Assembly (NCBI GenBank): GCA_001790205.1
Contig: MGBU01000002.1
Location: 1-33,741 of the forward strand
Direction: 5' to 3'
DNA from: Candidatus Rokubacteria bacterium GWA2_73_35
GTDB lineage: Bacteria; Methylomirabilota; Methylomirabilia; Rokubacteriales; CSP1-6
Length of the DNA: 33,741 nt
The notes under the pieces are model-generated. The model searched no databases. It saw only the letters and a list, made by a program, of their open reading frames with translations, and had not been told where the DNA came from. The position numbers were made by a program, and so were the translations under genes. Shown piece after piece: positions 6,396 through 33,741 of this stretch. Every line of letters begins with the position of its first letter. Position 1 is the first letter of the stretch.

Positions 6396-7083
<688 letters not shown>

Positions 7084-7106
<23 letters not shown>

Positions 7107-13922: not shown

Positions 13923-13934
13923 GGCCGTCTCCTT

Positions 13935-14025: not shown

Positions 14026-15199
14026 AGATGATCCCGCGCGCCCGCAGATCCGCGAGCCGCGCCGGAGGATACCCGAGCACCCCGCCGTAGATCGTCTCAT
14101 TGTGCTCGCCGAGGCGGGGCGGGAAGCCGAGCGGCGGCGGGTCGCCCACGGGCGGCGCGGGCAGCGCGAGCTCGATGCCCGTGCGGGGGTCCCGGACGCG
14201 CACGAGCGCCGACGCGACGAGCGGGTCCGCCACCACGTCGGCGAGCGTGGCGACGCGCGCGACGGGGACGCCCGCCGCGCGCAGCTGCGCGAGCGCCTCG
14301 TCGGTCGCGAGCCGCGCGAAGCACTCCGCGAGCGCCCGGTGCAGGCGCGGCGCGTCGGCGACCCGCCCGGCGTTGGTCGCGTACGCGGGCCGGTCCACGC
14401 CGGCGAGCGCCGGGAGGCGCGCGAGCGCCGCCCACTGCGCGTCGTTGCCGACGGCCACGTAGACCCAGCCCTCGCGCGTCGCGAACACCGAGACCGGCGC
14501 GAAGAACTGGTGCGTGTTGCCCCGGCGCGTGACGCGCTCGCCCAGGCTCGCGCCGAGTACCAACGGCGCGACCAGCCAGGACACCGCGCTCCGCAGCATC
14601 GAGAGGTCGATCCGCGCGCCGCCGCCGCGGCGCGCGCGCCGGTAGAGCGCCTTCATCACCTCGCCGTAGCCGTGCTCGGCGGCGCCGAGGTCCACCATGG
14701 GCAGGCCGAACACGGTCGGCGGGCCCTCGGGCTCGCCGGTCAGCTCCATGAAGCCCGCGCGCGCCTGGAGGACCGGGTCGTACGCGGCCTCGTCGTGGGC
14801 GGGCCCGAAGCCCGTGATGCCGAGCCAGACCAGGTCCGGCACGGCCGCCGCGAGCGTCGTGTAGTCGATCCCGAGGCGGCCGTAGCTGCGCGGGCGCTGG
14901 TTCGTGGCGAAGACGTCCACGCGGAGGGCGCCGAGCAGCTCGAGCAGGAGCGCCCGGCCCTCGGGCTCCGCGAGGTTCAGCGTGACGGCCTCCTTGCCGC
15001 AGTTGTTCGGCAGGAAGTAGCTCCGCATGCCGGGCTCGCCGAGCACGTCGCGCCCGACGAAGCGGTTCGGGTCGGGGTGCGCGGCGTTCTCGACGCGGAC
15101 CACCCGGGCGCCGTCGCAGGCGAGCCGGTACGTGAGGAACGGCAGGACGGTGGCCTGCTCGAGCGAGAGGACGGTGAGGCCGTCGAGGGCGCGGCTCAC
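14024..15199 (-). CDS. CaiB/BaiF-type (family III) CoA-transferase
   Basis: GTG start at 15199 (GTGA overlap with upstream gene): [37 protein letters not shown]...; family III Asp in [14 protein letters not shown]. Confidence 0.9.
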
Positions 15200-17329: not shown

Positions 17330-18055
17330 TCAACGGCCGGCGCGTCCGAGGCCCAGGTAGGCGCTCCGCACGCGCGGGTCGTCGGCGAGCGCGCGGCTCG
17401 CGCCCGCGACCGCCACCCGCCCCGTCTCGAGGACGTAGCCGCGCGCGGCCAGCCGGAGCGCGCGCCGCGCGTTCTGCTCGACCAGCAGCACGGCCACGCC
17501 GCCCTCGTTGATGCGCCGGATGGTGCGGAAGATCTCGCTCGCCAGCATCGGCGCGAGCCCGAGCGACGGCTCGTCGAGGAGCAGGAGGCGCGGCCGCGCC
17601 ATCAGCGCGCGGCCGATCGCGAGCATCTGCTGCTCGCCCCCCGAGAGCGTGCCCGCGAGCTGCGTGCGGCGCTCGCGGAGCACCGGGAACAGCTCGAAGG
17701 CCGCCTCCGCGCGCGCGCCGAGCTCGCGCCGCGCCGCCGTGTGCCCGCCCACGAGGAGGTTCTCGAGGACGCTGAACTCCGGGAAGATCTCGCGCCCCTC
17801 GGGCACGTGCGTGATGCCCGCCGCGACGATCGCGTCCGCGGGCGCGTGCGTGATGTCCCGCCCCTCGTACACGACGCGGCCGCGCGCGGGCCGCACGAGC
17901 CCGGAGATCGCGCGGAGCGCGGTGGACTTGCCGCTGCCGTTGGCGCCGAGGAGGGTGACGATCTCGCCCGGCTCGACGGTGAGCGACACGCCGTCGAGCG
18001 CGCGGCGCTTGCCGTAGTAGACGGCGACGTCCTCGAGCGCGAGCGTCGCGCTCAC
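17330..18055 (-). CDS. livF: Branched-chain amino acid ABC transporter ATP-binding protein (LivF-like, second cassette)
   Basis: GTG start at 18055 overlapping the livG stop. LLGANGSGKSTALRAISGL, LSGGEQQMLAIGRALMARPRLLLLDEPSLGLAP. Confidence 0.94.
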   Translation of the reverse strand: MSATLALEDVAVYYGKRRALDGVSLTVEPGEIVTLLGANGSGKSTALRAISGLVRPARGRVVYEGRDITHAPADAIVAAGITHVPEGREIFPEFSVLENLLVGGHTAARRELGARAEAAFELFPVLRERRTQLAGTLSGGEQQMLAIGRALMARPRLLLLDEPSLGLAPMLASEIFRTIRRINEGGVAVLLVEQNARRALRLAARGYVLETGRVAVAGASRALADDPRVRSAYLGLGRAGR

Positions 18056-18813
18056 GCCTCCTCGCTCCCCAGGTACGCCTCGATGACGGCGGGGTCGGCC
18101 GCGATCTCGCGCGGCGAGCCCGACGCGATCCGGCGGCCGTAGTTCAGGACGAGGACCCGGTCCGAGATCCCCATGACGAGCTCCATGTCGTGCTCGACGA
18201 CCAGGACCGTGAGCCCGCCCTCGTCGCGGAGGCGGCGGATCAGTTCCATGACCGCCTGCGTCTCCGTGGGGTTGAGGCCGCCCGCGGGCTCGTCGAGGAG
18301 CAGCAGCCGCGGCTCGGCAGCGAGCGCGCGCGCGATCTCGAGGCGCTTCTGGGAGCCGAGCGGCAGGCTGCCGGCCTCGACGCCGGCGACCTCGGCGAGG
18401 CCGACGCGCTCGAGGAGCGCGCGGGCGACGGCCCGCGCGCCCGCCTCCTCGCGCCACACCGAGGGGAGCCCGAGGGCTCCGCGCACGAGGCCGCCGCGCA
18501 GGTGGGCGTGCCGGCCGATCAGCACGTTGTCGAGCGCGCTGAGCTGCCGGAAGACCTCCGTGTTCTGGAACGTGCGGGCGATGCCCCGCCGGGCGATCCG
18601 GTGCGGCGGGAGCCTGAGCAGGTCCTGGCCGCGGAAGCGGACGCGCCCGGCGGACGGCCGGTAGAGGCCGGTGACGACGTTGAAGACGGTGGACTTGCCC
18701 GCGCCGTTCGGGCCGATCAGCGCGAAGATCTCCCGCTCAGCGACCTCGAAGCTCAGCGCGCTGAGCGCGGCGAGCCCGCCGAAGCTGATCGAGAGACCCT
18801 CGACGCCGAGCAC
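18052..18813 (-). CDS. livG: Branched-chain amino acid ABC transporter ATP-binding protein (LivG-like, second cassette)
   Basis: MLGVEGLSISFGGLAALSALSFEVAEREIFALIGPNGAGKSTVFNVVTGLYRPSAG; LLLLDEPAGGLNPTE. Confidence 0.95.
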   Translation of the reverse strand: MLGVEGLSISFGGLAALSALSFEVAEREIFALIGPNGAGKSTVFNVVTGLYRPSAGRVRFRGQDLLRLPPHRIARRGIARTFQNTEVFRQLSALDNVLIGRHAHLRGGLVRGALGLPSVWREEAGARAVARALLERVGLAEVAGVEAGSLPLGSQKRLEIARALAAEPRLLLLDEPAGGLNPTETQAVMELIRRLRDEGGLTVLVVEHDMELVMGISDRVLVLNYGRRIASGSPREIAADPAVIEAYLGSEEA

Positions 18814-18819
18814 GGAGCG

Positions 18820-19980
18820 CTACTCCGCCTTGAGCCAGTCCGTGAGCTGCTTGAAGCGGCCCTTCTCCACGCGCACCCAGAAGCCCTGCTTCTGCGTCTC
18901 GTGGTCCGCGCCGATCGAGAGCGGCGGCAGGATGCCGCTGTCGAACCCCTTGACGCCCTCGAGGGCCGTGACGAGCGCCGAGCGCGTCAGGGTGCGCCCC
19001 GCGCGCTTGGCGCCCTCGGTGAACAGCATCGCCGCGAAGTAGCCGGAGAGCGAGTAGCGGTTCGGCTCGTTCTTCGGGAAGTACTTCTGCATCTCCGCGC
19101 GGTAGCGCTTGAGCGCCGCCAGGTCGGACGCCACCGGGTCGGGCCAGAGTGAGAGCCCCTCGACGCCCTCGGCGGCGTCGCCCGCGAGCGCCAGGTATCG
19201 CTCGTCGGTGAGCGGCCCCGAGGAGACCGCGACGACCTTCGTCCAGCCGATCCGCTGCCGCTCCTTCAGCGCCTGCGCCGCGGGCCCGGGCGTCAGCACG
19301 AGGAACAGCACCTCGGGCTTCGCGGCCTGCAGCTTCGCGATCTGCGCGCTGACGTCCGTCACGCCGCGCTTGACGGATTCGGCGGCCACCATCTTCAGGC
19401 CGTGCGGCGCGAGGTTCTTCTCGAACGCGGTGAGGAAGGACTTGCCGTACTCGTCGTCCTGGTACAGCGTGGCGACCGCCTTGAACTTCCGCTGGCCGAC
19501 CAGGTAGTCGATCATCATCTTCGCCTGGCGGTCGTAGAGCAGCATGCCGTTGAACACCCACGGCCGGCCGCGGGTGACCGGCGAGCCCTGGAACGGGAAC
19601 AGGAGGGGCACCTTCTGCTCCTCGAGGTAGCCGAGCGTGGCGACGACCGGCGGGGTCCCCTGGGGCGCGATGATCGCGAACACCCGGTCCTGCTCCACCA
19701 GCTTCTTCGTGTTCGCGACGGCCTCCTGGGGCTTGTAGCCGTCGTCGTAGTAGATCGTGCGGATCTTCCGCCCGTTGATGCCGCCGGCGTCGTTGACGAC
19801 CTTGAAGTAGAGATCGACGCCGTACCGCGTCGCCTGCTCGCCCGTGAAGGCGAGCGGGCCCGAGAACGAGTTCGAGCCGCCGAGGACGATCTCCGAGTCC
19901 GTGACGCCCTGTTGCGCGAGCGCCGGCGGCGCCGCCGCCGCCACGAGGAGCGCGATCACGACTGCGAGCCCTGTCCTCAT
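18820..19980 (-). CDS. ABC transporter substrate-binding protein (Leu/Ile/Val-binding type, second cassette)
   Basis: MRTGLAVVIALLVAAAAPPALAQQGVTDSEIVLGGSNSFSGPLAFTG. SD GGAGGAGG is correctly spaced for the ATG at 19980; the ATG at 19986 is too close to the SD. Confidence 0.93.
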   Translation of the reverse strand: MRTGLAVVIALLVAAAAPPALAQQGVTDSEIVLGGSNSFSGPLAFTGEQATRYGVDLYFKVVNDAGGINGRKIRTIYYDDGYKPQEAVANTKKLVEQDRVFAIIAPQGTPPVVATLGYLEEQKVPLLFPFQGSPVTRGRPWVFNGMLLYDRQAKMMIDYLVGQRKFKAVATLYQDDEYGKSFLTAFEKNLAPHGLKMVAAESVKRGVTDVSAQIAKLQAAKPEVLFLVLTPGPAAQALKERQRIGWTKVVAVSSGPLTDERYLALAGDAAEGVEGLSLWPDPVASDLAALKRYRAEMQKYFPKNEPNRYSLSGYFAAMLFTEGAKRAGRTLTRSALVTALEGVKGFDSGILPPLSIGADHETQKQGFWVRVEKGRFKQLTDWLKAE

Positions 19981-20198
19981 ACGCATCCTCCTCCCGATGA
20001 GTGGTCCGACTGCCACTCGATCCAGTCCGTGAGTTGCCCGAAGCGACCTTCCCCGTACTGCGCGCCCGCGTCCGGGTCGCCTGCTCCGGCCCCGTCCGGG
20101 GCGGCGGCCGGCGGCGGCGCGCGCACCCCCCGCCGTCTTCGCGCGCGGCGACGGGCGCGTCCCGGTCGCGGCGAGCGCGAGCGCTCCTCGGTGCGCAT
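19977..20198 (-). CDS. Small 73-aa ORF whose C-terminal part resembles the end of the neighbouring substrate-binding protein (possible gene relic)
   Basis: ...GDPDAGAQYGEGRFGQLTDWIEWQSDHSSGGGCV. Stop TGA overlaps the SBP ATG (ATGA). GRFGQLTDWIEW compares with GRFKQLTDWLKAE at the SBP C-terminus. The N-terminal half is low-complexity Arg/Pro/Ala. Confidence 0.4.
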   Translation of the reverse strand: MRTEERSRSPRPGRARRRARRRRGVRAPPPAAAPDGAGAGDPDAGAQYGEGRFGQLTDWIEWQSDHSSGGGCV

Positions 20199-20211
20199 GC
20201 GCGGCTCTCTC

Positions 20212-21135
20212 CTATCGCGCCGGGGGCGTCCGCCGCGGCACGCGGCTCGCGATCCCGCCCGGCATGAACAGCATGCAGCCGATCAGGATCAGGCCGAAGA
20301 ACAGCGGCCGGTAGTTCTGGAAGGCGGCGAGCCAGTCGTACAGGAGCGTGATCACCGCCGCGCCGAGGATCGAGCCGGGGATCGAGCCGAGCCCGCCGAC
20401 GATGATCATGGCGACAAAGTCCACCGACAGGAACACGTCGAACGCGTCCGGCGAGATGAAGCCGACGACGAACGCGAACAGCCCGCCGGCCACGCCCGTG
20501 TAGAACGCCGAGACCGCGAACGCGAGCGTCTTGTACGCCGCCAGGTGCACGCCACTCGCCTGCGCGGCGATCTCGCTCTCGCGGATCGCGAGCAGCGCCC
20601 GCCCCGTCCGCGTCCGCGCGATGTTGACCGCGGCGGCGACCATCAGCGCGCCGACCGCGAGCACGAGGTAGTACTTGGCCGCGTCGCTCGCGAGCGCGAG
20701 CGGGCCGAGCCGCGCGACGGGCACGGCGAGGCCGTCGTTGCCCCGCGTGAGCCAGTCGAGGTTCAGGATCGCCTCGACCACCACGAACCCGAACGCGAGC
20801 GTGGCCATCGCGAGGTAGAGGCCCTCCAGGCGCAGGCACGGCACGCCGAGCGCCAGGCCGACGAGCGCGGTCGCCAGCCCCGCCAGCGCCAGCGTCAGCA
20901 CCACCGGCAGCGCCGGCTCCCGCACCGTGAGGACCGCGGCCACGTACGCGCCGACCGCGAAGAAGCCCGCGTGGCCGAACGAGAGCTGGTTCGTGTAGCC
21001 CGAGAGGAGGTTCAGCCCGATCGCCACGATCGCGTTCACCACGATCAGGCTCGTCAGGAACACGAAGTAGCGCGGCACCAGCAGCGGCCAGGCGAGCAGG
21101 ACCGCACCGCCCGCGACCAGCGCCGCCCGGCGCAT
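20212..21135 (-). CDS. livM: Branched-chain amino acid ABC transporter permease (LivM-like, second cassette)
   Basis: MRRAALVAGGAVLLAWPLLVPRYFVFLTSLIVVNAIVAIGLNLLSGYTNQLSFGHAGFFAVGAYVAAVL; RTRTGRALLAIRESEIAAQASGV. Confidence 0.95.
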   Translation of the reverse strand: MRRAALVAGGAVLLAWPLLVPRYFVFLTSLIVVNAIVAIGLNLLSGYTNQLSFGHAGFFAVGAYVAAVLTVREPALPVVLTLALAGLATALVGLALGVPCLRLEGLYLAMATLAFGFVVVEAILNLDWLTRGNDGLAVPVARLGPLALASDAAKYYLVLAVGALMVAAAVNIARTRTGRALLAIRESEIAAQASGVHLAAYKTLAFAVSAFYTGVAGGLFAFVVGFISPDAFDVFLSVDFVAMIIVGGLGSIPGSILGAAVITLLYDWLAAFQNYRPLFFGLILIGCMLFMPGGIASRVPRRTPPAR

Positions 21136-22013
21136 CACACCTTCCGCTGCCGGGCCCGCCCGAGCACGCCGCTCGGCCGGATCATGAGGATGGCGATCAT
21201 CAGGAGAAACGGCACCGAGTGCTTGATCCCCGCCGGCAGCCAGAGCGGCGCCAGGTTCTCCAGCACGCCGAGGAGCATGCCGCCCACGACGGCGCCCGGC
21301 ATGGACCCGAAGCCGCCGAGCACCGCCGCGGTGAACCCGTTGATGACCACGAGCCCCATCGAGGACGACAGGAAGACGACCGGGGCGATCAGCACGCCCG
21401 CGATCGCGCCGACGACGCCGGCGAGCACCCACGACGCCGAGTACACGCGCTCGACGCTGATGCCCATGAGCCGCGCGGCGCGCTGGTTCTGCGCCACCGC
21501 GCGCATCGCGCGGCCGAGCCGCGTCCAGCGGAAGAGCGCGCCGAGCGCCAGCATGAGCCCCAGCGAGCCGCCGATGATGCCCAGCGACACCGGCGCGACG
21601 CGCACCGGCCCCAGCACGAGCGGGCGGTTGTCGAAGAACGACGGGAACGGGAACTGGTCGTGCGTCCACACGAGGCCCGCCGCGGCGCGCAGCACGAGGG
21701 AGAGGCCCAGCGTGATGATGAGCACGTCGAAGTGGGTCGCCGAGATCGCGCGCCGGATGACCGCCCACTCGATGGCCCAGGCGAGGAGCGCCGCGGCGGC
21801 GACCGCCACGAGCAGGACGACGACCAGCGGCAGAGCGAGCGCTTCCCAGGCCGCCCAGCCCACGAACGTCGAGATCATCAGCATCTCGCCCTGGGCGAAG
21901 TTGAGCGTCCGGGTGGCGTTGTAGATGATGACGAGCGCGATGGCCATCAGCGCATAGATCGAGCCCGTGGCGAGCCCGCTCACGACGACGTGGATCAGCG
22001 CCGCCGTCGTCAC
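21135..22013 (-). CDS. livH: Branched-chain amino acid ABC transporter permease (LivH-like, second cassette)
   Basis: MTTAALIHVVVSGLATGSIYALMAIALVIIYNATRTLNFAQGEMLMISTFVGW; RWTRLGRAMRAVAQNQRAARLMGI. Confidence 0.95.
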   Translation of the reverse strand: MTTAALIHVVVSGLATGSIYALMAIALVIIYNATRTLNFAQGEMLMISTFVGWAAWEALALPLVVVLLVAVAAAALLAWAIEWAVIRRAISATHFDVLIITLGLSLVLRAAAGLVWTHDQFPFPSFFDNRPLVLGPVRVAPVSLGIIGGSLGLMLALGALFRWTRLGRAMRAVAQNQRAARLMGISVERVYSASWVLAGVVGAIAGVLIAPVVFLSSSMGLVVINGFTAAVLGGFGSMPGAVVGGMLLGVLENLAPLWLPAGIKHSVPFLLMIAILMIRPSGVLGRARQRKV

Positions 22014-23737
22014 GGGCGCCGGCCCCCCGTCACGCGCTCGACCTCGAACGTCTCCGCGTCGACCTCCACGCCGTAGTCGCGCCGCGCCGCAGCGCGCGAG
22101 AGCACGCCGTCGCGGACCTCCGCCGCGACGAGCTCGGCGGGCCGCTCGCGCGGGTCGCCGAAGCCGCCGCCGCCGCCGGCGCGCTGGCGGAAGCGCGTGC
22201 CGCGCGGGATCGCCACGACGTCCTTCGAGCGGGGCACGACCCGCGTCCCGTCCGGCAGCGTCAGCTCGATCGAGTTCAGCGCGCCGGGGCCGCCGCCGAA
22301 CAGGCCGAACGCGCGCGCCTCCTCGTCCACGCCGTCGCCGAAGACCACCCCGGTGACATCCTCGCCGTGCACCTCGAACTCGGTCTCGACGCCGAGGCCG
22401 CCGCGCCAGCGGCCGGGCCCCGCCGAGTCGGCCAGGTACTCGTGCCGCCGCAGGAGGTGCGGCGTGTGCACCTCGAGCATCTCGTAGTCCTGCGCGAGGA
22501 GGCCGCCCGCGGTGTTGATGAGGCCGATGTGGTCGTAGCCGTCCGTGCCCCGGACCGCGCCCGAGCCGCCCTTGAGCGCGAGGAACAGGATGTCCACGTA
22601 GCGCCGCCCGCGGCGAGGGTCCCGGCCCGTCACGGTCATGCCGAGCATCCGGTTCCAGCCCGCCGACACCCGGTCGGGCAGCGCCGGCGCCAGCGCGCGG
22701 AAGATCGCGTCCGAGTGCGGGCCCGCGAGCGTGTTGCCGAACGTCGTCGCGGCCGGGAACTCAGCGTTGAGGATCGTCCCCCGCGGGATGTGGACGCGCA
22801 CCGGGCGGAGGATCCCCTCGTTGTGCGGCAGGTCGGGGTCCACGAGCATCAGGAGCGTGAGGATCACCGCCGAGAACGACGACGCGTACGGCGCGTTCAC
22901 GAAGCCGACCGTCTGCGGGTCGGTGCCCGTGTAGTCGAAGGCGATGTCGCTGCCGCGCTTCGCGATCGTCACCACGATCCGGTGGCGGCTCCCCGGATGG
23001 TGGCCATCGTAGAACACGACGGACTCGCCGCGGTACGTGCCGTCGGGGATGCGCCGGAGCTCGCTCCGCATCCGCCGCTCACCGGCGTCGAAGAGGGCCT
23101 CGAGGTGGCGCTCGAGGGCCGCCGCGCCGTGGCGCCGGTAGAGCTCGAGCACGCCGCGCTCGCCGACGACGGTCCCGCCGATCTGCGCCTCGAGGTCCTC
23201 GGCCACGATCGGCAGGCGCACGTTCGCGAGCACGAGGTTCCAGACGTCGCGCCGGAGCTGCCCCCGCTCGACGACGCGGAGGGGCGGGATGCGGAGCGCC
23301 TCCTGCCACACCTCGGTCGCCCTCGGGTTGTAGCCGCCGGCCTGCGCGCCCCCGATGTCCGCCTGGTGCCCCTTCGTCGCCGCCCACGCGACCAGCCGGC
23401 CCTCGTGGAAGACCGGGCGGAAGACGGCGACGTCGTTGTTCTGGTTGCCGCCCGAGAACACGTCGTTGTGCAGGAACACGTCGCCCGGGTGCACGTCGCG
23501 GCCGAACGCCGCGATCACCGCGCGGCACGCCGGGGCGAGCGCGAAGGCGAGGATCGGGATGTACTCGGCCTGCTCGAGGATGCGGCCCTCGGCGTCGTAG
23601 AGGCCGGTGACGAAGTCGCGCGCCTCGCTGAGGATCGGCGAGCGCGTGGTGCGCAGGAGCGTGAGCCCCATCTCCTGGGTGATCGCCCGCAGCCGCCGCT
23701 GCAGCACCGACGCGAGCACGGGATCCGGCGCGTTCAC
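22010..23737 (-). CDS. hyuB: Hydantoinase B/oxoprolinase-family protein (HyuB-like)
   Basis: GTG start at 23737: VNAPDPVLASVLQRRLRAITQEMGLTLLRTTRSPILSEARDFVTGLYDAEGRILEQAEYIPILA...HPGDVFLHNDVFSGGNQNNDV...; GDPRERPAELVAAEVRDGVLS. Confidence 0.94.
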   Translation of the reverse strand: MNAPDPVLASVLQRRLRAITQEMGLTLLRTTRSPILSEARDFVTGLYDAEGRILEQAEYIPILAFALAPACRAVIAAFGRDVHPGDVFLHNDVFSGGNQNNDVAVFRPVFHEGRLVAWAATKGHQADIGGAQAGGYNPRATEVWQEALRIPPLRVVERGQLRRDVWNLVLANVRLPIVAEDLEAQIGGTVVGERGVLELYRRHGAAALERHLEALFDAGERRMRSELRRIPDGTYRGESVVFYDGHHPGSRHRIVVTIAKRGSDIAFDYTGTDPQTVGFVNAPYASSFSAVILTLLMLVDPDLPHNEGILRPVRVHIPRGTILNAEFPAATTFGNTLAGPHSDAIFRALAPALPDRVSAGWNRMLGMTVTGRDPRRGRRYVDILFLALKGGSGAVRGTDGYDHIGLINTAGGLLAQDYEMLEVHTPHLLRRHEYLADSAGPGRWRGGLGVETEFEVHGEDVTGVVFGDGVDEEARAFGLFGGGPGALNSIELTLPDGTRVVPRSKDVVAIPRGTRFRQRAGGGGGFGDPRERPAELVAAEVRDGVLSRAAARRDYGVEVDAETFEVERVTGGRRP

Positions 23738-25803
23738 GCCGGCTCCAGCACGAACGAGCCGTGGCGGTCGGTCTCCAGGCGCCACTCGGGCGGAACGACG
23801 ACCGTCGTGAGCGGCAGCTCGACGAGCGCCGGCCCCGCCAGGCGCGCACCGGCGCCGAGGCCCAGGCCGTCGTAGAGGTCCACCTCGCCGAACGCCCGCT
23901 CCGCCGCGAGCCACGCGCGCCGCCGGCCCCGGCGCAGCGTCCGGGCCGCGCCGCCGGCCGGCGCCTCCGGCAGGCGCGGCTTGTCCACGAGGCCCGTCGC
24001 CACGCCGCGGACGTTGACCAGCTCGAGCGGCGTGTCGGGCAGCGCGTAGCCGTACAGGCGGTCGTGCGCCTCGTGGAAGCGCTTGGCGACGCCGGAGAGG
24101 TCGGCGGCGTCCGCCTCCTCGGCGAGGAGCGGCACCGTGATCTCGTGGTACTGGCCGACGTAGCGGACGTCGCACGCGAGCGCCAGCGCGCGGCGCGCCG
24201 CGGGGACGCCCTCGCCGGCGAGCGCCGCGTGCCCGTCGCGGGCGAGCGCCGCGCACACGCCCCGCAGGCGGTCGGCGTCGAGCCCGTCCACCGGTACCAC
24301 GAGGGTCTGGACGAGGTCGTGGCGCAGGTCGGCGAAGAGCATCCCCGCGGCGCAGAAGATCGAGGAGTCGCGCGGCACGAGGATGCGCGTGATGCCGAGC
24401 TCGTGCGCGATGCCCGCGGCGTGGACCGGCCCCGCGCCGCCCGCGACCACGAGCGGGAGCGCCCGCGGGTCGTGCCCCCGCTCGACCGTCACGTGCCGGA
24501 TGCCCGCCGCCATGTTCGCGTCGATGACCTCGACGATGCCGGCCGCCGCGGCCTCGACCCCGAGGCCGAGCCGCGCGGCGAGCCCCTCCACCGCGGCGCG
24601 CGCGGCGCCGGGATCGAGGCGCAGCCGGCCGCCGAGGAAGCCCGCGGGGTCGAGGAGGCCGAGCAGGAGGTCGGCGTCCGTGCAGGTCGGCGCGCTCCCG
24701 CCCCGGCCGTAGCACGCGGGGCCCGGCGCGGCGCCGGCGCTCCGCGGGCCGACCCGCAGCAGCCCGCCGTCGTCGATCCAGGCGATCGAGCCGCCGCCCG
24801 CGCCGATCGTGTGGATCGCGAGCATCGGCAGGCCGAACGGGTAGCGCCCGATGCGGCCCTCGGAGGTGAGCATCGCCGCGCCGTCCCGGACCAGGCACAC
24901 GTCGAAGGACGTGCCGCCCATGTCCACGGTGAGGAAGTCGCGCAGGCCGTGCGTCGCCGCGTACGCCGTCCCGGCCGTGGGCGCCGCCGCGGGTCCCGAC
25001 AAGAGCGTGCTCGCGGCCGCCGCGCGCGCGGTCGCGGGCGCCGCGACGCCGCCGTTCGACTGCATCACGAGGAGCGTGCCGCGGAAGCCCGTCAGGGCCA
25101 GGCGCGTCGTGAGCCGCTCCAGGTAGCGGGCGAGCACCGGGCCCACGGCGGCGTTCAGCACCGTCGTGCTCACGCGCTCGGTGAACCGGATCTGCGGCAG
25201 GATCGCCGAGGAGCGCGTCACGTACGCGCCCGGCAGCGCCGCGGTCGCCAGGCGCGCGGCCGTGACCTCGTGCGCCGGGTTCGCCCACGCGTGCAGGAAG
25301 CAGACCGCGACGGCCTCGACGCCGACCGCGGCGAAGCGCGCGAGGGCGTCCTCGACGTCGCGGTCGTCGAGCGGCGCCACGACCGCGCCCGTGGCGTCCA
25401 CGCGCTCGGTCACGGGCAGCCGGAGCCAGCGCGGCACCAGCGGCTCCGGCGCGCGGTAACGGTTGTCGTACTGGGCCTCGCGGATCCCGCGCCGCATCGC
25501 GAGCGCGTCGCGGAAGCCGCGCGTCGTGAGCAGCCCGACGCGCGCGACGTCGCCGGTGAGCACGGCGTTCGTCGTGATCGTCGTGCCGTGGACGATCAGC
25601 TCCACCTCGGCGAGGAACTCGCCGAGGCTCCGGCCCTCGCCCGTCGCCATCTCGGCGAGCCCGGCGAAGAAGCCGTCGGTGGGGTCCGGGGGCGTGGTCG
25701 GGACCTTGACGGCCCGCGGCCGCCCGAGCGCGGGCTGCAGCAGGAAGTCCGTGAAGGTGCCGCCGACGTCCGCGCCGATCCGGTAGCCGGACTTCGCGAT
25801 CAT
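23734..25803 (-). CDS. hyuA: Hydantoinase A/oxoprolinase-family protein (HyuA-like)
   Basis: MIAKSGYRIGADVGGTFTDFLLQ, VHGTTITTNAVL, SGPAAAPTAGTAYAATHGLRDFLTVDMGGTSFDVCLVRDG, GAGGGSIAWID. Confidence 0.95.
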   Translation of the reverse strand: MIAKSGYRIGADVGGTFTDFLLQPALGRPRAVKVPTTPPDPTDGFFAGLAEMATGEGRSLGEFLAEVELIVHGTTITTNAVLTGDVARVGLLTTRGFRDALAMRRGIREAQYDNRYRAPEPLVPRWLRLPVTERVDATGAVVAPLDDRDVEDALARFAAVGVEAVAVCFLHAWANPAHEVTAARLATAALPGAYVTRSSAILPQIRFTERVSTTVLNAAVGPVLARYLERLTTRLALTGFRGTLLVMQSNGGVAAPATARAAAASTLLSGPAAAPTAGTAYAATHGLRDFLTVDMGGTSFDVCLVRDGAAMLTSEGRIGRYPFGLPMLAIHTIGAGGGSIAWIDDGGLLRVGPRSAGAAPGPACYGRGGSAPTCTDADLLLGLLDPAGFLGGRLRLDPGAARAAVEGLAARLGLGVEAAAAGIVEVIDANMAAGIRHVTVERGHDPRALPLVVAGGAGPVHAAGIAHELGITRILVPRDSSIFCAAGMLFADLRHDLVQTLVVPVDGLDADRLRGVCAALARDGHAALAGEGVPAARRALALACDVRYVGQYHEITVPLLAEEADAADLSGVAKRFHEAHDRLYGYALPDTPLELVNVRGVATGLVDKPRLPEAPAGGAARTLRRGRRRAWLAAERAFGEVDLYDGLGLGAGARLAGPALVELPLTTVVVPPEWRLETDRHGSFVLEPA

Positions 25804-26228
25804 CGGCGCGGCTCGCACAGCTCCGTGATCAGGCCGGTCGCCGGGTCGGGCTCGAGGAAGGCCACGCGGCCGTGCGCGCCCTCCACCGGGAAGCCCGGCA
25901 CGACGCACGCGCCCCGCGCGGCGACCTCGGCGAGCGCCCGGTCGAGGTCCTCCACGCGGAAGCACAGGTGGTGGACGCCCTCGCGGCGGGCGAGCGTCGG
26001 GCCGAAGCGCTCGACGACCGGACCCGTGTACTGCACGAGCTCGAGCGGCGCGCCGCCGACCTCGAGGAACGCCACGCGCACGCCGAGCGCGCTCTCCCAC
26101 CGCTCGCCGGCGCGCACGCCCGCGAGGCGCTCGAGCGAGGCCACCGCGCGCTCGAGGTCCTCGACGACGATCCCGATGTGCATGAGCCGCCCGAAGAGCG
26201 GGCCCGCTGTGGGCGCGTGTGGCTTCAT
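25800..26228 (-). CDS. VOC-superfamily protein, methylmalonyl-CoA epimerase-like
   Basis: MHIGIVVEDLERAVASLERL...VAFLEVGGAPLELVQY...GVHHLCFRVEDLDRALAEVAARG...GRVAFLEPDPATGLITELCE. Confidence 0.85.
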   Translation of the reverse strand: MKPHAPTAGPLFGRLMHIGIVVEDLERAVASLERLAGVRAGERWESALGVRVAFLEVGGAPLELVQYTGPVVERFGPTLARREGVHHLCFRVEDLDRALAEVAARGACVVPGFPVEGAHGRVAFLEPDPATGLITELCEPRR

Positions 26229-26716
26229 CGCGCCCGCGCCTCGAACCGGCACGCGGGCGCGCCCACCGCTGCGCACGCCGTCTCGACCGCCGCCGCCGGC
26301 CGGCCGAGCGCCAGCTCGGCGAGCCGCTCCACCACGCCGCGCGTGAGGTGGCACACGGGGCCCGCGGCCGGGCCGTAGGCCTCGGCGAGCGGCGAGTGCT
26401 CGACCCGCACCACCAGCGCGTCGGGCGCCAGGCGCTCGAGCGCGAACCGCCCCCAGCCGATCTCGCCGCCCATCGCGAGCAGCCGTCCCACCGCCTCCTC
26501 CGCCCCGCCGCCGAGCGCCCGGAGCGCCGCGCCGCCGCCCGCGCGCCCCCCCGCGACGAGGCACTCCGCGGCCCGCGCGCCGAGCGCGGCCTCGAGCGCC
26601 TTCTGGAGCGCCACGAGCGTCTCGGGGCGCACGAGGAGGTACCGCGAGGCGCCGTACGCGAGCCGGCCCGCGCCGTCGTCCCTGAGCCCGGCGAGTACGC
26701 GGTTCTCGCCGGTCAC
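26225..26716 (-). CDS. Stand-alone V4R (4-vinyl reductase / hydrocarbon-binding-like) domain protein
   Basis: GTG start at 26716: VTGENRVLAGLRDDGAGRLAYGASRYLLVRPETLVALQKALEAAL...CHLTRGVVERLAELALGRPAAAVETACAAVGAPACRFEARAR, V4R-like with the terminal ExxC...CxF pattern. Confidence 0.72.
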   Translation of the reverse strand: MTGENRVLAGLRDDGAGRLAYGASRYLLVRPETLVALQKALEAALGARAAECLVAGGRAGGGAALRALGGGAEEAVGRLLAMGGEIGWGRFALERLAPDALVVRVEHSPLAEAYGPAAGPVCHLTRGVVERLAELALGRPAAAVETACAAVGAPACRFEARAR

Positions 26717-27822
26717 TTGAGCGCCCTCGCCCACACGGCCGAGCGCCAGCCCTCCTCGAGGAGCGCGCGGATCTCGCGGCGGCTCAGGTCCCCGAGCCCG
26801 AGGGCCTCGAGCGCGCGGCCGCGGCCGGAGAGCTCGCGCCCGAGCAGCGCGCCGAACAGGAGCAGGAGCCCGCTGATGCCCGGCGTCGCGGCGCCGGCCG
26901 CGCGCGCCGCCGACTCGAAGAGCGCCAGGCCGAGCGCCACGTCCTCGGTGACCCAGCGGTGCTCGAACGTGAGGGTCTCGCTCCAGGCTCCGCGCGCGCC
27001 GAGCTTCTGCCGGGCGCCCGCGCCGCGGAGCCCCTCGGCCGCGCGCGCCTCGTCCTCGTGCGCCGCGAGCTCGTCGTGCGGCGCGGGATAGCCCCAGCCC
27101 CGCCGCGTCGCGAGCCGCTCGGCGTCGACGACGTCGATGAGCCGCCGCGCGCTCGGCGTCGGGCCCGCGGCGTGGACGTCGAAGCGGCCGGCGTCGATCG
27201 CGCCCGCGTTCAGCAGCACGAGCGGCGGGTGGATCACCGGTCCGGCGTTCGTCAGCGCGGCGTCGAGCACGTCGGCGCACGGCCGCACCGCCGGGAACAG
27301 CTCGGCGAACCGCGCGAGCGCCGCCTCGCGCTGCGAGGCCGGGAAGACGCCGACGGGCAGGGTGGCGGCGCGCACCGGCGCCGCCACGACGGCCGGCCCG
27401 GTCTTCCGGGCGACGTACGGCCCTCGGCCCGTCTCGCCGAGGGCCTGCGGCAGGGCGCCGCCGGCGCGGGCGATTTCGCGCGCCAGGACCCAGCTCCCGA
27501 GCGTGCCCGGGGTCAGCAGCACCGTGTGGTGAGCGGTCACGTGCGGCGCGAGCCGACGGGCGAGGTCCTCGTGGGTCGTCGCGGGCAGCAGGACGATCAG
27601 CACCTCGGCGCCGGCGACGGCCTCGCCGATGTCCGTGGTCGCGCGCTCGAGGCGCGCGCTCCCCTGCCGGCCCTCGGCGACGAGCTGGATCGTCGGGTCG
27701 TCGTGGAGCGGCCCGAGCGTCGCCGCCGTGCGCGTCCAGAGCCGCACCCGGTGCCCCGCGAGCGCGAGGTCCGCCGCGGTGGCGAAGCCGCCGTGGCTCC
27801 CGCCGAGGACGGCGACGATCAT
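26713..27822 (-). CDS. NAD(P)-dependent octopine/nopaline (opine) dehydrogenase family protein
   Basis: MIVAVLGGSHGGFATAADLALAGHRVRLWTR Rossmann fold; TNAGPVIHPPLVLLNAGAID matches the opine dehydrogenase NxxxHPPxxLLNAG pattern. Confidence 0.85.
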   Translation of the reverse strand: MIVAVLGGSHGGFATAADLALAGHRVRLWTRTAATLGPLHDDPTIQLVAEGRQGSARLERATTDIGEAVAGAEVLIVLLPATTHEDLARRLAPHVTAHHTVLLTPGTLGSWVLAREIARAGGALPQALGETGRGPYVARKTGPAVVAAPVRAATLPVGVFPASQREAALARFAELFPAVRPCADVLDAALTNAGPVIHPPLVLLNAGAIDAGRFDVHAAGPTPSARRLIDVVDAERLATRRGWGYPAPHDELAAHEDEARAAEGLRGAGARQKLGARGAWSETLTFEHRWVTEDVALGLALFESAARAAGAATPGISGLLLLFGALLGRELSGRGRALEALGLGDLSRREIRALLEEGWRSAVWARALK

Positions 27823-27862
27823 CGGCTCGCCTCGCCCGCGGCTGCGGCTCGCACGGCCACGA

Positions 27863-29056
27863 TCACCCGACGACCCCCGCGGCCCTGAGCTCGGCGATCC
27901 GCGCGCGCGAGTACGCGAGCGTCCCCGCGAGCACCTCGTCGGTGTGCTCGCCGAGCCGCGGCGGGGGCGCGGCCTCGAACGGCGGCGCGCCGTCCGCCTT
28001 GACCGGCGTGCCGAGCGTCGGCGTCGGGCCGTGCACGGGGTGGCGCATCTCGACGACCATCTCGCGGAGCCGCACCTGCGGGTCGGCGAGCACCTGGTCC
28101 AGCGGAAGGATCGGCGCCGCCGGCACGCCCTCGGCGTGCAGGCGCGCGAGCCACTCGCCGGTCGTACGGGCGCGGAAGACGGCCTCGATCAGCGGCTCGA
28201 GCGTCCCCCGGTGGCGGACGCGGTCACGGTTGGCCGCGAAGCGCGGGTCGTCGGTCCACTCGGGGCGCTCGACGGCGCGGCAGAAGCCCGCCCAGAAGTT
28301 CTCGGCGAACACCGCGACGATCAGGTGGCCGTCCTGCGTCGCGAGCGCCTGGTAGGGCACGACCGAGGCGTGGCGCGAGCCCAGCGGGCCGGGCACCCGG
28401 CGGTCCGTCCAGAAGTACTGCGCGACGTACGTGAGCAGCGAGACCTGGCAGTCGAGGAGCGAGAGGTCCAGGTGCGCGCCCGCGCCCGTGCGCTCGCGCC
28501 GGAGGAGCGCGCCCGCGACCGCGAACGCGCCGAAGAGGCCGCCGGCGAGATCGCCCATCGGCAGCCCCATGCGCACGGGCGGGCCGCCCGGCGCGCCGGT
28601 GAGCGACATCGCGCCGCCCATCGCCTGCAGCGCGAGGTCGAAGGCCGGCCAGTCCCGGTACGGCCCCTCCTGCCCGTACGCCGAGATCGAGCAGAGGACG
28701 ACGCGCGGGTTGACGGCGGCCAGCTCGGGGTACGCGCAGCCGAGCCGCTCGAGCACGCCGGGGCGGAAGTTCTCGAGGACGACGTCCGCCGCGCGGACGA
28801 GGTCGAGGAACACCTCGCGCCCCGCGGGCTTCGTCAGGTCGAGCGCGACCGACTTCTTGTTGCGGTTGACGGCGAGGAAGTAGGCCGACGCCCCGTCGGG
28901 GAGGAACGGCGGCCCCATCACGCGCATGGGGTCGCCGCCGCGCGGCGCCTCGATCTTGATGACCTCGGCGCCCTGGTCGGCGAGCAGCATGGCGCCGTAC
29001 GGCCCCGCGAGCATGCGGGAGAGGTCGAGCACGCGGACGCCCTCGAGAAGCCTCAC
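27863..29056 (-). CDS. CaiB/BaiF-type (family III) CoA-transferase
   Basis: GTG start at 29056: VRLLEGVRVLDLSRMLAGPYGAMLLADQGAEVIKIEAPRGGDPMRVMGPPF...; catalytic Asp in GLPMGDLAGG. Confidence 0.94.
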   Translation of the reverse strand: MRLLEGVRVLDLSRMLAGPYGAMLLADQGAEVIKIEAPRGGDPMRVMGPPFLPDGASAYFLAVNRNKKSVALDLTKPAGREVFLDLVRAADVVLENFRPGVLERLGCAYPELAAVNPRVVLCSISAYGQEGPYRDWPAFDLALQAMGGAMSLTGAPGGPPVRMGLPMGDLAGGLFGAFAVAGALLRRERTGAGAHLDLSLLDCQVSLLTYVAQYFWTDRRVPGPLGSRHASVVPYQALATQDGHLIVAVFAENFWAGFCRAVERPEWTDDPRFAANRDRVRHRGTLEPLIEAVFRARTTGEWLARLHAEGVPAAPILPLDQVLADPQVRLREMVVEMRHPVHGPTPTLGTPVKADGAPPFEAAPPPRLGEHTDEVLAGTLAYSRARIAELRAAGVVG

Positions 29057-31323
29057 GGCCGCCGCGCCTCGAGCGCGGCGCGCACGCGCGCCGGCGTGAT
29101 CGGCAGCTCGGTGAACCGGACGCCGATCGCGTCCTTGAGCGCGTTGGCCACGGCGGCGGCGACGGGGATCACGCCCGACTCGCCGAGGCCCTTGGCGCCG
29201 AACGGCCCCTCCGCGTCCACGCTCTCGATCAGCCGCACGGCGATGTCGGGCATGTCGTCGGCGCGAAAGAGCGCGTAGTCCATGAAGGACTGGGTGAGGA
29301 CCTGCCCCTCCTCGACGACGAGCCGCTCGCTGAGCGCGTAGCCGAGGCCCATGTGGATCCCGCCGTGGACCTGGCCCTCGGCGGCGCCCGGGTTGAGCGC
29401 GCGGCCCACGTCGTGGGCGGAGGCGATCTTCCGGACCTCGACCCGGCCGGTCTCCGCGTCCACGTCGACGAGCGCCGCCTGGACGGCCGAGGTGTACGCC
29501 GCCGACACGTTGCCCTGCAGATCCTTGTCGAGCATCGCCGTGGGCGGATCGTAGAACGCCTCGGCCACGAGCACGCGCCCGCCGCCCCGGAAGTGCCCGG
29601 TGCGCGCCACCGCGTCGTAGGCGAGGCGCCGCTCGGGGTCGCGCGTGACGAAGACCCACCCGCCGCGGAGGTCGAGGCTCGCCGCCGGCTCCTCGAGCTG
29701 CTCGGCCGCCATCCCGAGCAGCTCGGCGCGGACCTTCGCCGCGGCGAGCCGCGCCGCGTTGCCGGCGACGAACGTCGTCCGGCTCGCGTGGGTGCCGACG
29801 TCCCACGGCCGCACGCGCGTGTCGGAGCTGACCACGTCCACGCGCCCGAGCGGCACGCCGAGCGTCTCGGCGACGATCATCGCGAGCACCGTGTCCGAGC
29901 CCTGGCCGATCTCGCTCGCGCCGGTGATCAGCGTCACGGCGCCGAAGTCGTCGAGCTTGACGATCGCGCCGCAGCCGTCGGAGCGGTAGATCCGCGCGCC
30001 GCCGCCGACGTGGAACATGCCCGCGTAGCCGACGCCGCGCCGCCAGCCCGGCCTGAGCGGCGGGGGGTCGCGCCGGATCTCCTCGGCCGCCGCGTCGAGG
30101 CACTCGGTCATCGCGAACGACGTGAGCACAAACCCCTGCGGGTTCACGTCGCCGGGCTGGCTCGCGTTCCGCCGGCGCAGCTCGAGCGGGTCGAGGCCCA
30201 GGCGCTCGGCCAGGTCGTCCATCTGGGACTCGACCGCGAACGTGGACTCGGGGTTGCCGTAGCCGCGCATCGAGCCCGAGTAGGGGTTGTTCGTGTAGAC
30301 GATCGTCGTGTCGAGCCGCACGCTCGGCACGCGGTAGAGGCCCGCGACCGTCGAGAGCATCACGTAGGGCGTCGTCGAGCCCCACGAGGTGTACGCGCCG
30401 TTGTCGATCGTCACGTGGCAGTCCCGCGCGAGCAGGCGCCCGTCCCGGTCGGCGGCGGTGCGGAGCCGGATCGTGCACGGCTCGCGGCCCGGGCACGCGA
30501 CGAACTCCTCGACGCGGTCGAACTCGATCTTCACCGGCCGCCCCGCCCGCCGGGCCAGCAGCGCGGCGATCACGTCGATCGGGTAGAGGTCGAGCCCCCG
30601 GCCGAAGTTGCCGCCGACCGGCGGCTGGAGGACGCGCACCCGGTCGCCGGTGATCCCGAGCGCCGCCGCCAGGTCCCGCTGGTAGAGGAACGGCACCTGC
30701 GTGGTCGTCCACATCGTGAGGCCGCCGTCCGCGCTCCAGTCGGCGACCGCGACCATCGTGCCGAGGCACGCCTGCGTGACGAACGGCAGCCGGTACGTGT
30801 CCTCGACGACCGCCGCGGCGCCGGCGAAGGCGTGGTCCACGTCGCCGCGGGTGAACCGGTAGCGCAGCGGGTGCGCGTTGGTCCCGAGCTCCTCGTGGAC
30901 GAGCGGCGCGCCCGGCGCGAGGGCCGCGCGCGGGTCGAACACCGCGGGCAGCTCCGCGTACTCCACGTCGAGCAGCTCGAGCGCGGCCTCGGCGATCGCC
31001 CGCGTCTCCGCGGCGACCGCGGCGACCTCGTCGCGGACCGAGCGCACCCTGCCGCGCTTGAGGGCGGTCTGGTCCCCGGCGAAGCCGAAGGGGATCGGGT
31101 CGACGTCCTCGCCGGTGAGCACGGCCAGGACGCCGGGGAGCGCGCGGGCGCGGGCCGTGTCGATCGACACGATGCGCGCGTGCGGGAATCGCGCGCGCAG
31201 GATCCGGCCGTGCGCGAGCCGCGGCAGCTCGAGGTCGTGGAGGTAGCGCGTGCGCCCCGTCGCCTTCTCGGCGCCGTCGCGCCGGGGGACCGTCGTGCCG
31301 ATGACCTCGAACCCGGCGGCCAT
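29053..31323 (-). CDS. Molybdopterin-binding subunit of a xanthine dehydrogenase-family molybdenum hydroxylase
   Basis: MAAGFEVIGTTVPRRDGAEKATGRTRYLHDLELPRLAHGRILRARFPHARI...; QPPVGGNFGRG; GSMRGYGNPESTFAVESQMDDLAERLGLDPLELRRRNA; GPFGAKGLGESGVIPVAAAVANA with the catalytic Glu. Confidence 0.93.
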   Translation of the reverse strand: MAAGFEVIGTTVPRRDGAEKATGRTRYLHDLELPRLAHGRILRARFPHARIVSIDTARARALPGVLAVLTGEDVDPIPFGFAGDQTALKRGRVRSVRDEVAAVAAETRAIAEAALELLDVEYAELPAVFDPRAALAPGAPLVHEELGTNAHPLRYRFTRGDVDHAFAGAAAVVEDTYRLPFVTQACLGTMVAVADWSADGGLTMWTTTQVPFLYQRDLAAALGITGDRVRVLQPPVGGNFGRGLDLYPIDVIAALLARRAGRPVKIEFDRVEEFVACPGREPCTIRLRTAADRDGRLLARDCHVTIDNGAYTSWGSTTPYVMLSTVAGLYRVPSVRLDTTIVYTNNPYSGSMRGYGNPESTFAVESQMDDLAERLGLDPLELRRRNASQPGDVNPQGFVLTSFAMTECLDAAAEEIRRDPPPLRPGWRRGVGYAGMFHVGGGARIYRSDGCGAIVKLDDFGAVTLITGASEIGQGSDTVLAMIVAETLGVPLGRVDVVSSDTRVRPWDVGTHASRTTFVAGNAARLAAAKVRAELLGMAAEQLEEPAASLDLRGGWVFVTRDPERRLAYDAVARTGHFRGGGRVLVAEAFYDPPTAMLDKDLQGNVSAAYTSAVQAALVDVDAETGRVEVRKIASAHDVGRALNPGAAEGQVHGGIHMGLGYALSERLVVEEGQVLTQSFMDYALFRADDMPDIAVRLIESVDAEGPFGAKGLGESGVIPVAAAVANALKDAIGVRFTELPITPARVRAALEARRP

Positions 31324-31325
31324 GC

Positions 31326-32921
31326 TCAGAACGTCACCGGCTCCCGGTGCTCGCCGAAGACGTCCTTCATCGCCTGGCAGATCTCGCCGAGCGTCGCGTA
31401 CGCCCTCACCGATTCCAGGATCGGCTCCATCAGGTTGCCCGTGCCGCGCGCCGCGTCCCGGAGGCGCGCGAGCGTGCGCGCGGCCGCGGCGCCGTCGCGC
31501 GCGCCCCGGACCCGGGCGAGCCGGGCCACCTGCGCCTCGACCACCCGGGGGTCGAGCGCGTAGAGCTCCATCGCGCGGTCCGCCTCGGCGGCCTCCCCGC
31601 CGACGTGGCAGTTCACCGCGACCTTCGCCACCTCGCCCGAGGCCAGCTGCCGCTCGTAGCGGTACGCCTGGCGCGCGACCTCGGCCTGGAGCGCGCCGCT
31701 CCGGACGGCCTCGACGATCCCGCCCATCCGCTCGACCGCCTCGAGCTCCGCCAGGATCTGCCGCTCCATCGCGGCGGTCAGCGCCTCGACGTAGTAGGAG
31801 CCGCCGAGCGGGTCCACGGTGTCCGCGGCGCCCGCCTCCTCCGCGCAGATCTGCATCGTCCGGAGCGCCAGGAGCTGCGCCTTCGGCGAGGGGATCGTGT
31901 AGGCCTCGTCGTAGGTCGGCAGCGCGATCGTCTGCGCGCCGGAGAGCGCCGCCGCGAGCGCGATGTACGCGCCGCGCACGATGTTGTTCTCCGGCTCCTG
32001 CGCGGTGAACGCCGAGCCGCCGCCGCCGATCAGGCTCCGGAACATCCACGACCTCGGGTCCCGCGCGCCGAACCGCTCGCGCATCATGCGCGCGTAGAGC
32101 CGGCGGCCCGCGCGGAACTTCGCGACCTCCTCGAAGATCCTGCCCCACGCGGTGAAGTTGAACGAGATACGGGGGGCGAACTCGTCCACGCCCAGCCCCC
32201 GCGCCAGCATCAGCTCGACGTACGCGGCGGCGATCGCGAGGCCGTACGCCATCTCCTGCGCGGTCGTGCAGCCGGCCTCCCGGATGTGGTAGCCGCACAC
32301 CGAGACCGGGTTCGAGCGCGGGTAGCGCCGGGCCGAGAACTCGATGAGGTCGGCCACGAGCCGGAGCGAGGGCTCGACCGGGTAGATCCACGTGCCCCGC
32401 GCGACGAACTCCTTGAGGATGTCGTTCTGCGGCGTGGTGACGACGCGCTCGGGCGCCGCCCCCTGCGCCTCGGCGACGGCGTAGTACATCGCCGTGATCG
32501 GCGCCGCCATCCCGTTGATCGTGAGCGAGACGCTCACGCGGTCGAGCGGGATGCCCGCGAACGCCTCCTCCATGTCGGCCAGCGTGTCGATCGCCATGCC
32601 GACCCGCCCCACCTCGCCCTCCGCGCGCGGGTCGTCGGAGTCGAGCCCGAGCTGCGTCGGCAGGTCGAAGGCGACGTTCAGCGCGTCCTGGCCGTGCGCC
32701 ATCAGGTACTTGAACCGGCCGTTCGTCTCCTCCGGCGTGCCGAAGCCGACGTACTGTCGCATCGTGAAGAGGCGGTCGCGGTACATGCGCGGGTGGATGC
32801 CGCGCGTGTACGGGTACTCGCCGGGCCGGCCGATGTCGCGCTCGAAGTCGACGCCGGCCGTGTCCGCCGGCCCGTAGACCGGCTCGATCGGGAAGCCCGC
32901 GTGCGCTCTCGCGTCCCTCAT
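31326..32921 (-). CDS. Methylmalonyl-CoA mutase-family (B12-dependent acyl-CoA mutase) large/catalytic subunit, divergent active site
   Basis: [105 protein letters not shown]. Confidence 0.93.
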
Positions 32922-33328
32922 GGGCGACTCGCCTCCCTGGGATCGCTCGGCTCGCCCCGCCCCGTGAACGCGCCCACGATCTCCGGCAGGGGCGTCCCCA
33001 TCGGGAACACGCGCGCGACGCCCAGCCGGCGGAGCTCCTCCACGTCGCGCGGCGGGATGGTGCCGCCCACGACGACCTCGATCTCCGTGGCGCCCTCGCG
33101 CCGCAGCGCCTCGAGCACGCGCCGGGCGAGCGGCACGTGGGCGCCCGAGAGGATCGAGAGCCCGATCACGTCCACGTCCTCCTCGATCGCCTCCTGCACG
33201 ACCTCCTCGGGTGTGCGCTTGAGCCCCGTGTACACGACCTCGACGCCGGCGTCGCGCAGCGCCTGCGCGACGACCTTCGCGCCGCGGTCGTGCCCGTCGA
33301 GCCCCGGCTTCGCCACGAGGATCTTCAT
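32918..33328 (-). CDS. Cobalamin-binding (small) subunit of the acyl-CoA mutase
   Basis: [71 protein letters not shown]; DxHxxG motif (DGHDRG). ATGA overlap with the large subunit. Confidence 0.95.
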
Positions 33329-33344
33329 GCTCGGACGCGGGGCC

Positions 33345-33741
33345 TCACGGTGATAACACCCGGAACGCGGGCAGCCAGCGCGGCCCGCCCCCCGGGCCGT
33401 CGGCGACGCGGAGCGGCGCCAGCGCCACGGGCTGGCCGACGCGCACCGCGCCGGGCTCGGCCCCGGTGAGGACCGAGAAGACGCGGTGGCCGCCCACCTT
33501 GACGATCGCGAACACGCGCGGCCCCTCGAACCCCGCGGGCAGACCCGCCTCCTGCACGCTGAACGCGTGGACCGTTCCCTCGCGCGGCAGGTCCACCCAC
33601 TCGAAGCGGTCGGAGGCGCACTCGGGGCAGAATCCGCGCGGCGGCCACGCCGTCGCGCCGCAGCCCGCGCAGCGCGTCGTCGCGAGCCGGCCGTCGGCCA
33701 GGCGCGCGTAGAACTCGTGGAGCTTGGTCTGGTCCGCCGAC
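33345..33741 (-). CDS. DUF35-type Zn-ribbon/OB-fold protein, partial (5' end beyond the right edge)
   Basis: Reverse complement from the right edge reads [64 protein letters not shown]..., with CxxC...CxxC rubredoxin-like zinc ribbon followed by an OB fold. Confidence 0.82.

Follow-up and report, generated by a model that had tools for sequence, protein, structure and literature searches.

A conserved operon of Candidatus Rokubacteria points to CoA-dependent breakdown of the auxin indole-3-acetate

Contig MGBU01000002.1 of Candidatus Rokubacteria bacterium GWA2_73_35 (assembly GCA_001790205.1), a metagenome-assembled genome (MAG) whose nearest named relatives are other Candidatus Rokubacteria MAGs, carries fifteen genes on the minus strand of positions 17330-33741. 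The window analysed here is the entire contig (33,741 nucleotides). Family assignments were taken from Pfam and NCBIfam profile matches. In transcription order the genes encode a DUF35 protein, the small (MutS) and large (MutL) subunits of a B12-dependent mutase, a Mo-hydroxylase large subunit (MoL), a CoA-transferase, an opine-dehydrogenase-like protein (ODH), a V4R protein, a VOC protein, HyuA, HyuB, and a Liv-type transporter comprising LivH, LivM, a substrate-binding protein (SBP), LivG and LivF (Table 1). The genes, order and single-strand layout proposed in a first-pass annotation, made from the letters alone, were thus borne out, as was its description of minimal gaps: nine junctions are 4-bp overlaps and the others are spaced by 2-40 bp, except LivM-SBP (about 195-250 bp). 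The overlap coupling hyuB to livH (22010-22013) also stands, but its letters are GTGA and not ATGA as first given. Multiple internal promoters or terminators, named at that stage as grounds for doubting one operon, were looked for. No sigma-70-like promoter was found in the operon stretch, and the only two terminator-like sites both lie on the opposite strand and are not above chance, leaving none on the coding strand. The contig ends inside DUF35, truncating it to 131 aa compared with about 142 aa in relatives.

Table 1. Genes of the operon and its downstream neighbours in the window, with predicted roles.
Feature	Position	Strand	Basis
DUF35 / ChsH2-type Zn-ribbon OB protein, 5' end cut	33345..33740	-	PF01796, PF12172; partner of upstream thiolase in relatives
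MutS, B12-binding small subunit of mutase (IaaG/H-like)	32918..33328	-	PF02310, TIGR00640
MutL, B12 mutase large subunit; candidate (2-aminophenyl)succinyl-CoA mutase	31326..32921	-	PF01642, methylmalonyl-CoA mutase-type Tyr + Arg, clade
MoL, Mo-hydroxylase large subunit; candidate subunit for 2-hydroxylation of indoleacetyl-CoA	29053..31323	-	PF02738, PF20256, PF01315
Family III CoA-transferase; candidate IaaL-type aryl-succinyl-CoA transferase	27863..29056	-	PF02515, 456 bits
ODH, opine-dehydrogenase-like NAD(P) oxidoreductase	26713..27822	-	PF02317; 1BG6 match, His/Asp pair kept
V4R-domain protein	26225..26716	-	PF02830
VOC protein, methylmalonyl-CoA epimerase-like; possible aryl-malonyl/succinyl-CoA epimerase	25800..26228	-	TIGR03081 62.5 bits, cut-off 114.95 not reached
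HyuA; candidate 2-oxoindoleacetyl-CoA lactamase subunit	23734..25803	-	PF01968, PF05378, PF19278; closest structure is 6YRA (5-oxoprolinase)
HyuB; candidate 2-oxoindoleacetyl-CoA lactamase subunit	22010..23737	-	PF02538; sister to proteobacterial HyuB adjoining IaaF
LivH permease	21135..22013	-	PF02653
LivM permease	20212..21138	-	PF02653
SBP, Liv-type substrate-binding protein	18820..20016	-	PF13458
LivG ATPase	18052..18813	-	PF00005, PF12399
LivF ATPase	17330..18055	-	PF00005
PaaK-like CoA ligase; candidate for the IaaB role (indoleacetate-CoA ligase)	15196..16467	-	PF14535, PF00501; TIGR02155 391 bits, below cut-off
Second family III CoA-transferase	14024..15199	-	PF02515; kept after ligase in relatives
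Acyl-CoA dehydrogenase, standard YEG motif (IYEGT), not IaaF	12774..13937	-	Pfam

This gene set corresponds to the iaa operon described for the anaerobic degradation of indoleacetate, a pathway that ends at 2-aminobenzoyl-CoA; the Aromatoleum operon encodes the ligase IaaB, the CoA-transferase IaaL, the mutase IaaGH, the dehydrogenase IaaF and the binding protein IaaM (PMC8360864, PMC9613470). The first-pass annotation had regarded the substrate as unknown and the combination of genes as matching no described pathway. Neither view held up, since the gene set, together with an adjoining IaaF-type dehydrogenase carrying a GGG motif in relatives, points to indole-3-acetate. We consider it highly likely that the operon encodes CoA-dependent, iaa-type breakdown of this auxin. 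With the iaa operon known from Aromatoleum aromaticum EbN1 and A. evansii, and predicted for Desulfatiglans anilini and Ferroglobus placidus as well, the Rokubacterial operon shares a CoA ligase (PaaK-like here, a candidate for the IaaB role), a hydantoinase-type enzyme, a GGG-bearing IaaF (seen in relatives), the B12 mutase pair, a CoA-transferase and an ABC binding protein. The Rokubacterial version differs from that of Aromatoleum in embedding a full Liv transporter, in having a second HyuAB pair and in encoding the Mo subunit without adjoining FAD and FeS genes; the gene list, as given in the available parts of the published accounts, does not contain ODH or V4R. According to a 2012 J Bacteriol abstract, the iaa operon reportedly also includes a Mo dehydrogenase, thiolase and GntR regulator, each with a Rokubacterial counterpart, together with a hydantoinase and a hydratase fused to a 3-hydroxyacyl-CoA dehydrogenase. 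The hydratase (MaoC) and 3-hydroxyacyl-CoA dehydrogenase (3HCDH) are separate in Rokubacteria, in contrast to the fusion said to occur in Aromatoleum.

The first-pass annotation would have doubted an operon whose order recurred in no relative. Gene order was kept in all 23 relatives inspected, with genes called by a simple codon-usage script, and the arrangement is therefore not a matter of chance. A search of other genomes, as suggested at that stage, recovered the cluster in Rokubacterial relatives and a collinear one in Alpha- and Betaproteobacteria. Upstream, where contigs reach that far, relatives continue with GntR-HyuA2-HyuB2-acyl-CoA dehydrogenase-MaoC-thiolase-3HCDH-amidohydrolase; downstream, they continue with a PaaK-like ligase, a second CaiB-type transferase (CaiB2) and an acyl-CoA dehydrogenase. 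A thiolase and a regulator had been expected beyond the right end of the window: the contig itself stops there, but a thiolase and GntR do lie upstream in relatives. MaoC, 3HCDH and thiolase are found upstream in most of them, and the thiolase has an invariant Cys89 within a CASG motif. One piece, VOC-HyuA-HyuB, is variable: besides the window, about five of the 23 inspected relatives have it, and the upstream HyuA2-HyuB2 pair was seen in 16-17 of them. Very probably, this is a conserved, slightly altered iaa-type operon present across soil bacteria known only from metagenomes.

In IaaF orthologues, GGG replaces the YEG motif of most other acyl-CoA dehydrogenases (PMC8360864). The dehydrogenase encoded upstream of DUF35 has GGG in 17/17 relatives, including two congeners in which it lies on the same contig as the cluster; YEG is kept by the remaining dehydrogenases of the cluster, that of the window (12774-13937) among them. 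Six proteobacterial cluster homologues, all reached through ODH-bearing genomes, likewise carry GGG and form a clade with the Rokubacterial ones (support 95/90). IaaF-type genes were detected in 44/56 family relatives, among them all 38 that carry ODH, and three congeners of this MAG have IaaF. Collinearity extends to the proteobacterial clusters: an alphaproteobacterium (L217) has HyuA-HyuB-IaaF-MutS-MutL-FAD-FeS-MoL-CoA-transferase, and betaproteobacteria show the same order or parts of it. In locus L129, a receptor of a tripartite transporter (TctC), V4R, ODH and 3HCDH come next, and the genes for the ligase, VOC and HyuAB lie on the opposite strand. Searches of plasmids returned no named full iaa cluster.

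The window mutase falls into a 100/100 clade with the proteobacterial cluster mutases. The remaining mutases of its genome lie outside this clade, as do methylmalonyl-CoA mutase homologues carried on plasmids. By alignment, the window mutase keeps Tyr89 and Arg207 of methylmalonyl-CoA mutase, the residues that bind the substrate carboxylate in that enzyme. Its best PDB match, 2-hydroxyisobutyryl-CoA mutase (4R3U), likewise has separate large and small subunits, but the active-site positions Ile90 and Gln208 of that enzyme are Tyr and Arg here. These residues fit a dicarboxylyl-CoA substrate, because the carboxylate-binding pair is kept and the 2-hydroxyisobutyryl-CoA mutase pattern is absent. 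Retention of the pair would also suit an auxin-unrelated lactam or N-heterocycle route (caprolactam-like or hydantoin-like) leading into ordinary methylmalonyl-CoA metabolism, as would the closer resemblance of HyuAB to caprolactamase and 5-oxoprolinase than to carboxylases. We regard such a route as very unlikely, given CapA and CapB (caprolactamase) scores of 664 and 407 bits against NCBIfam cut-offs of 1000 each, a mutase that groups with GGG-dehydrogenase clusters, and an IaaF-type dehydrogenase within the same cluster. Elsewhere in this genome, four mutase large-subunit genes, several small-subunit genes and a CoA-transferase form one run (G000:C264:4470-15987; loci L077, L003, L006-L008), which suggests a second mutase-based pathway of unassigned substrate.

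A two-subunit arrangement lacking a gamma subunit is of the hydrolase type, and predicted 2-oxoindoleacetyl-CoA lactamases form their own cluster within the hydantoinase branch (PMC5214803). The operon encodes only HyuA and HyuB, with no gamma subunit adjoining. The window HyuAB is a better candidate oxindole lactamase than the upstream HyuA2-HyuB2, because its HyuB is sister (100/99) to the HyuB encoded beside IaaF in Proteobacteria. Distant similarity to the Apc subunits could be read as a carboxylating route, in which HyuAB would act like an acetophenone or acetone carboxylase ahead of thiolysis; with scores far below the Apc cut-off and a hydrolase-type subunit arrangement (PMC5214803), we find this scarcely credible. 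Caprolactam-type degradation, acetophenone carboxylation, nicotinate-type fermentation, the ethylmalonyl-CoA and 2-hydroxyisobutyrate mutase pathways, and tropate or opine catabolism were considered early and dropped once the mutase residues had been read, no gamma subunit had been found and the dehydrogenase had turned out to carry GGG.

From gene content and order, the GGG motif in relatives, clade membership, residue conservation and co-occurrence, we infer the following reactions for indole-3-acetate. The Liv system would import auxin and the PaaK-like ligase, encoded directly after LivF in most relatives, would form indoleacetyl-CoA; the nearest structures of the SBP are generic Liv-type binding proteins, which do not point to a particular ligand. 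The Mo-hydroxylase would hydroxylate indoleacetyl-CoA at position 2 to the 2-oxindole, and HyuAB, judging by family and clade, would open the lactam with ATP to give (2-aminophenyl)succinyl-CoA. Position and family suggest that the CaiB enzyme shifts CoA to the other carboxylate. MutSL, by its clade and residues, would then catalyse rearrangement to (2-aminobenzyl)malonyl-CoA, which the VOC protein might epimerise if needed; a methylmalonyl-CoA epimerase is reported to act on benzylmalonyl-CoA (PMC8360864). Beyond the contig end, the IaaF-type dehydrogenase would oxidise and decarboxylate this product to 2-aminocinnamoyl-CoA, in keeping with the motif seen in relatives, and the hydratase, 3HCDH and thiolase/DUF35 genes found in most relatives would lead by beta-oxidation to 2-aminobenzoyl-CoA and acetyl-CoA. 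In essence, the chemistry sketched in the first-pass annotation (Liv import, Mo-hydroxylation, ATP-dependent lactam opening by HyuAB, CoA transfer by CaiB, mutase rearrangement, VOC epimerase) agrees with the published pathway. In that pathway, CoA activation by IaaB precedes hydroxylation, and the CaiB enzyme (IaaL) acts later, as a phenylsuccinyl-CoA transferase.

A bifunctional enzyme of the NF006101 type (salicylyl-CoA hydroxylase / 2-aminobenzoyl-CoA monooxygenase-reductase) exceeded its cut-off in 27/56 relatives, all of them IaaF-positive, and in 0/14 control genomes (Fisher p = 1e-4, by a test that ignores relatedness). These two activities are not told apart by the family model. Thus, 2-aminobenzoyl-CoA may be finished aerobically. 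No full-length NF006101 copy was shown in this MAG.

Several observations weigh against iaa-type auxin degradation. IaaF was not found in the assembly of this MAG (77% complete, fragmented), whose contig ends before the expected place. GGG also occurs in three dehydrogenases (L190, L192, L201) outside the Rokubacterial-proteobacterial clade, and two congeners have no MaoC and 3HCDH beside the thiolase. No FAD or FeS partner gene lies near the Mo subunit in the window or the 23 Rokubacterial relatives. The likeness to the iaa operon of Aromatoleum is one of gene content, motif and synteny. As separate observations, the GGG dehydrogenases of the betaproteobacterial loci L190 and L201 directly follow a Mo-hydroxylase-like gene, and two congeners carry an AA_synth (PF06684) gene between IaaF and thiolase (L040, 7310-7855; L041, 16693-17244), where MaoC is found elsewhere.

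The proteobacterial clusters encode all three Mo-enzyme subunits (large, FAD, FeS), and MoL is about 50% identical to its counterpart in L129, where FAD and FeS partners are encoded. Its best PDB and NCBIfam match is the alpha subunit of 4-hydroxybenzoyl-CoA reductase (1RM6), with 627 of the 995 bits needed; that subunit works with beta and gamma subunits, which are absent at the window locus. Four FAD-type and six FeS-type genes elsewhere in the genome are about equally distant from the L129 partners, and none could be named as a partner. Against these stand 12 Mo-hydroxylase large-subunit matches in the incomplete assembly, so that several of the large subunits may have no partners of their own.

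The ODH gene encodes an Octopine_DH domain in which His198 and Asp294, invariant in eight relatives, correspond to the His202/Asp297 pair of 1BG6 (CENDH fold), which is a catalytic pair. ODH was detected in 41/95 genomes of the phylum (E <= 0.001), with a close relative in 38/56 family relatives. Outside the phylum, an ODH match was accompanied by a 3HCDH match in 54/54 loci examined, from several phyla, in a set found through ODH and therefore biased towards ODH-bearing clusters. Many are Variovorax iad auxin loci. The iad locus, which serves aerobic auxin degradation, carries the same ODH-3HCDH pair but starts with a Rieske dioxygenase, and B12 mutase, HyuAB and Mo-hydroxylase were not seen in those loci. 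Next to the ODH pair of L133, a Rieske subunit matches 7YLS (977 bits), which, judging by its length, organism group and publication, we take to be the structure of IadD. The ODH-3HCDH loci (L085-L088, L121-L170) often contain TRAP transporters, indolepyruvate-oxidoreductase-like (iorAB-like) genes or iad-type Rieske dioxygenase genes. On a Paracoccus saliphilus plasmid (L087, 1163-14935), genes for a reductase, Rieske alpha and beta subunits, a ligase, a thiolase, an SDR, a cyclase and a second SDR lead to ODH, 3HCDH and a TRAP transporter; the run is probably an iad-like auxin operon.

As neighbouring genes resemble indolepyruvate oxidoreductase, our guess is that ODH oxidises indole-3-lactate. 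The Rokubacterial operon could apply the same chemistry to a related substrate, either an indole or oxindole acid with a different 3-substituent or a feeder such as indole-3-lactate that ODH oxidises before it joins the route. The pairing of ODH with 3HCDH in every external locus, many with iorAB-like genes or TRAP transporters alongside, would agree with this, and IaaF tolerates some other malonyl-CoA compounds (PMC8360864). It nevertheless seems improbable: the (2-aminophenyl)succinyl skeleton for IaaL, IaaGH and IaaF arises from indole-3-acetate itself, a feeder would leave auxin as the core substrate, and the Rokubacterial loci (window and 23 relatives) gave no iorAB-like match. We tentatively propose, while leaning towards doubt, that ODH and 3HCDH (with V4R) form an undescribed auxin-linked module common to iad loci and iaa-type clusters, for example as two dehydrogenases that channel indole-3-lactate or an indole-containing opine towards auxin breakdown, and that the Rokubacterial Mo-hydroxylase borrows redox subunits encoded elsewhere.

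An oxygen-independent auxin route has already been described in a handful of bacteria and a single archaeon. The literature searched contained no account of it in Rokubacteria, though one may exist nonetheless. If our assignment is correct, most sampled members (44/56 relatives) of an uncultured soil and groundwater family have a pathway devoted to the main growth hormone of plants, one whose first step needs no oxygen, and auxin breakdown in soil extends well beyond Variovorax and denitrifiers. Auxin would then be a concrete substrate for cultivation or isotope probing, and auxin loci of both aerobic and anaerobic type would hold an unexplained dehydrogenase pair, ODH-3HCDH.

Two further features of the window lie downstream of the operon. 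Between LivF and the ligase, the plus strand encodes a 245-aa protein without a Pfam match (16558-17295), with homologues in two relatives. Genes for another Liv transporter, which has a binding protein of its own, and for a TrpD-like phosphoribosyltransferase lie at 5178-10905 and are kept beside the cluster in many relatives.

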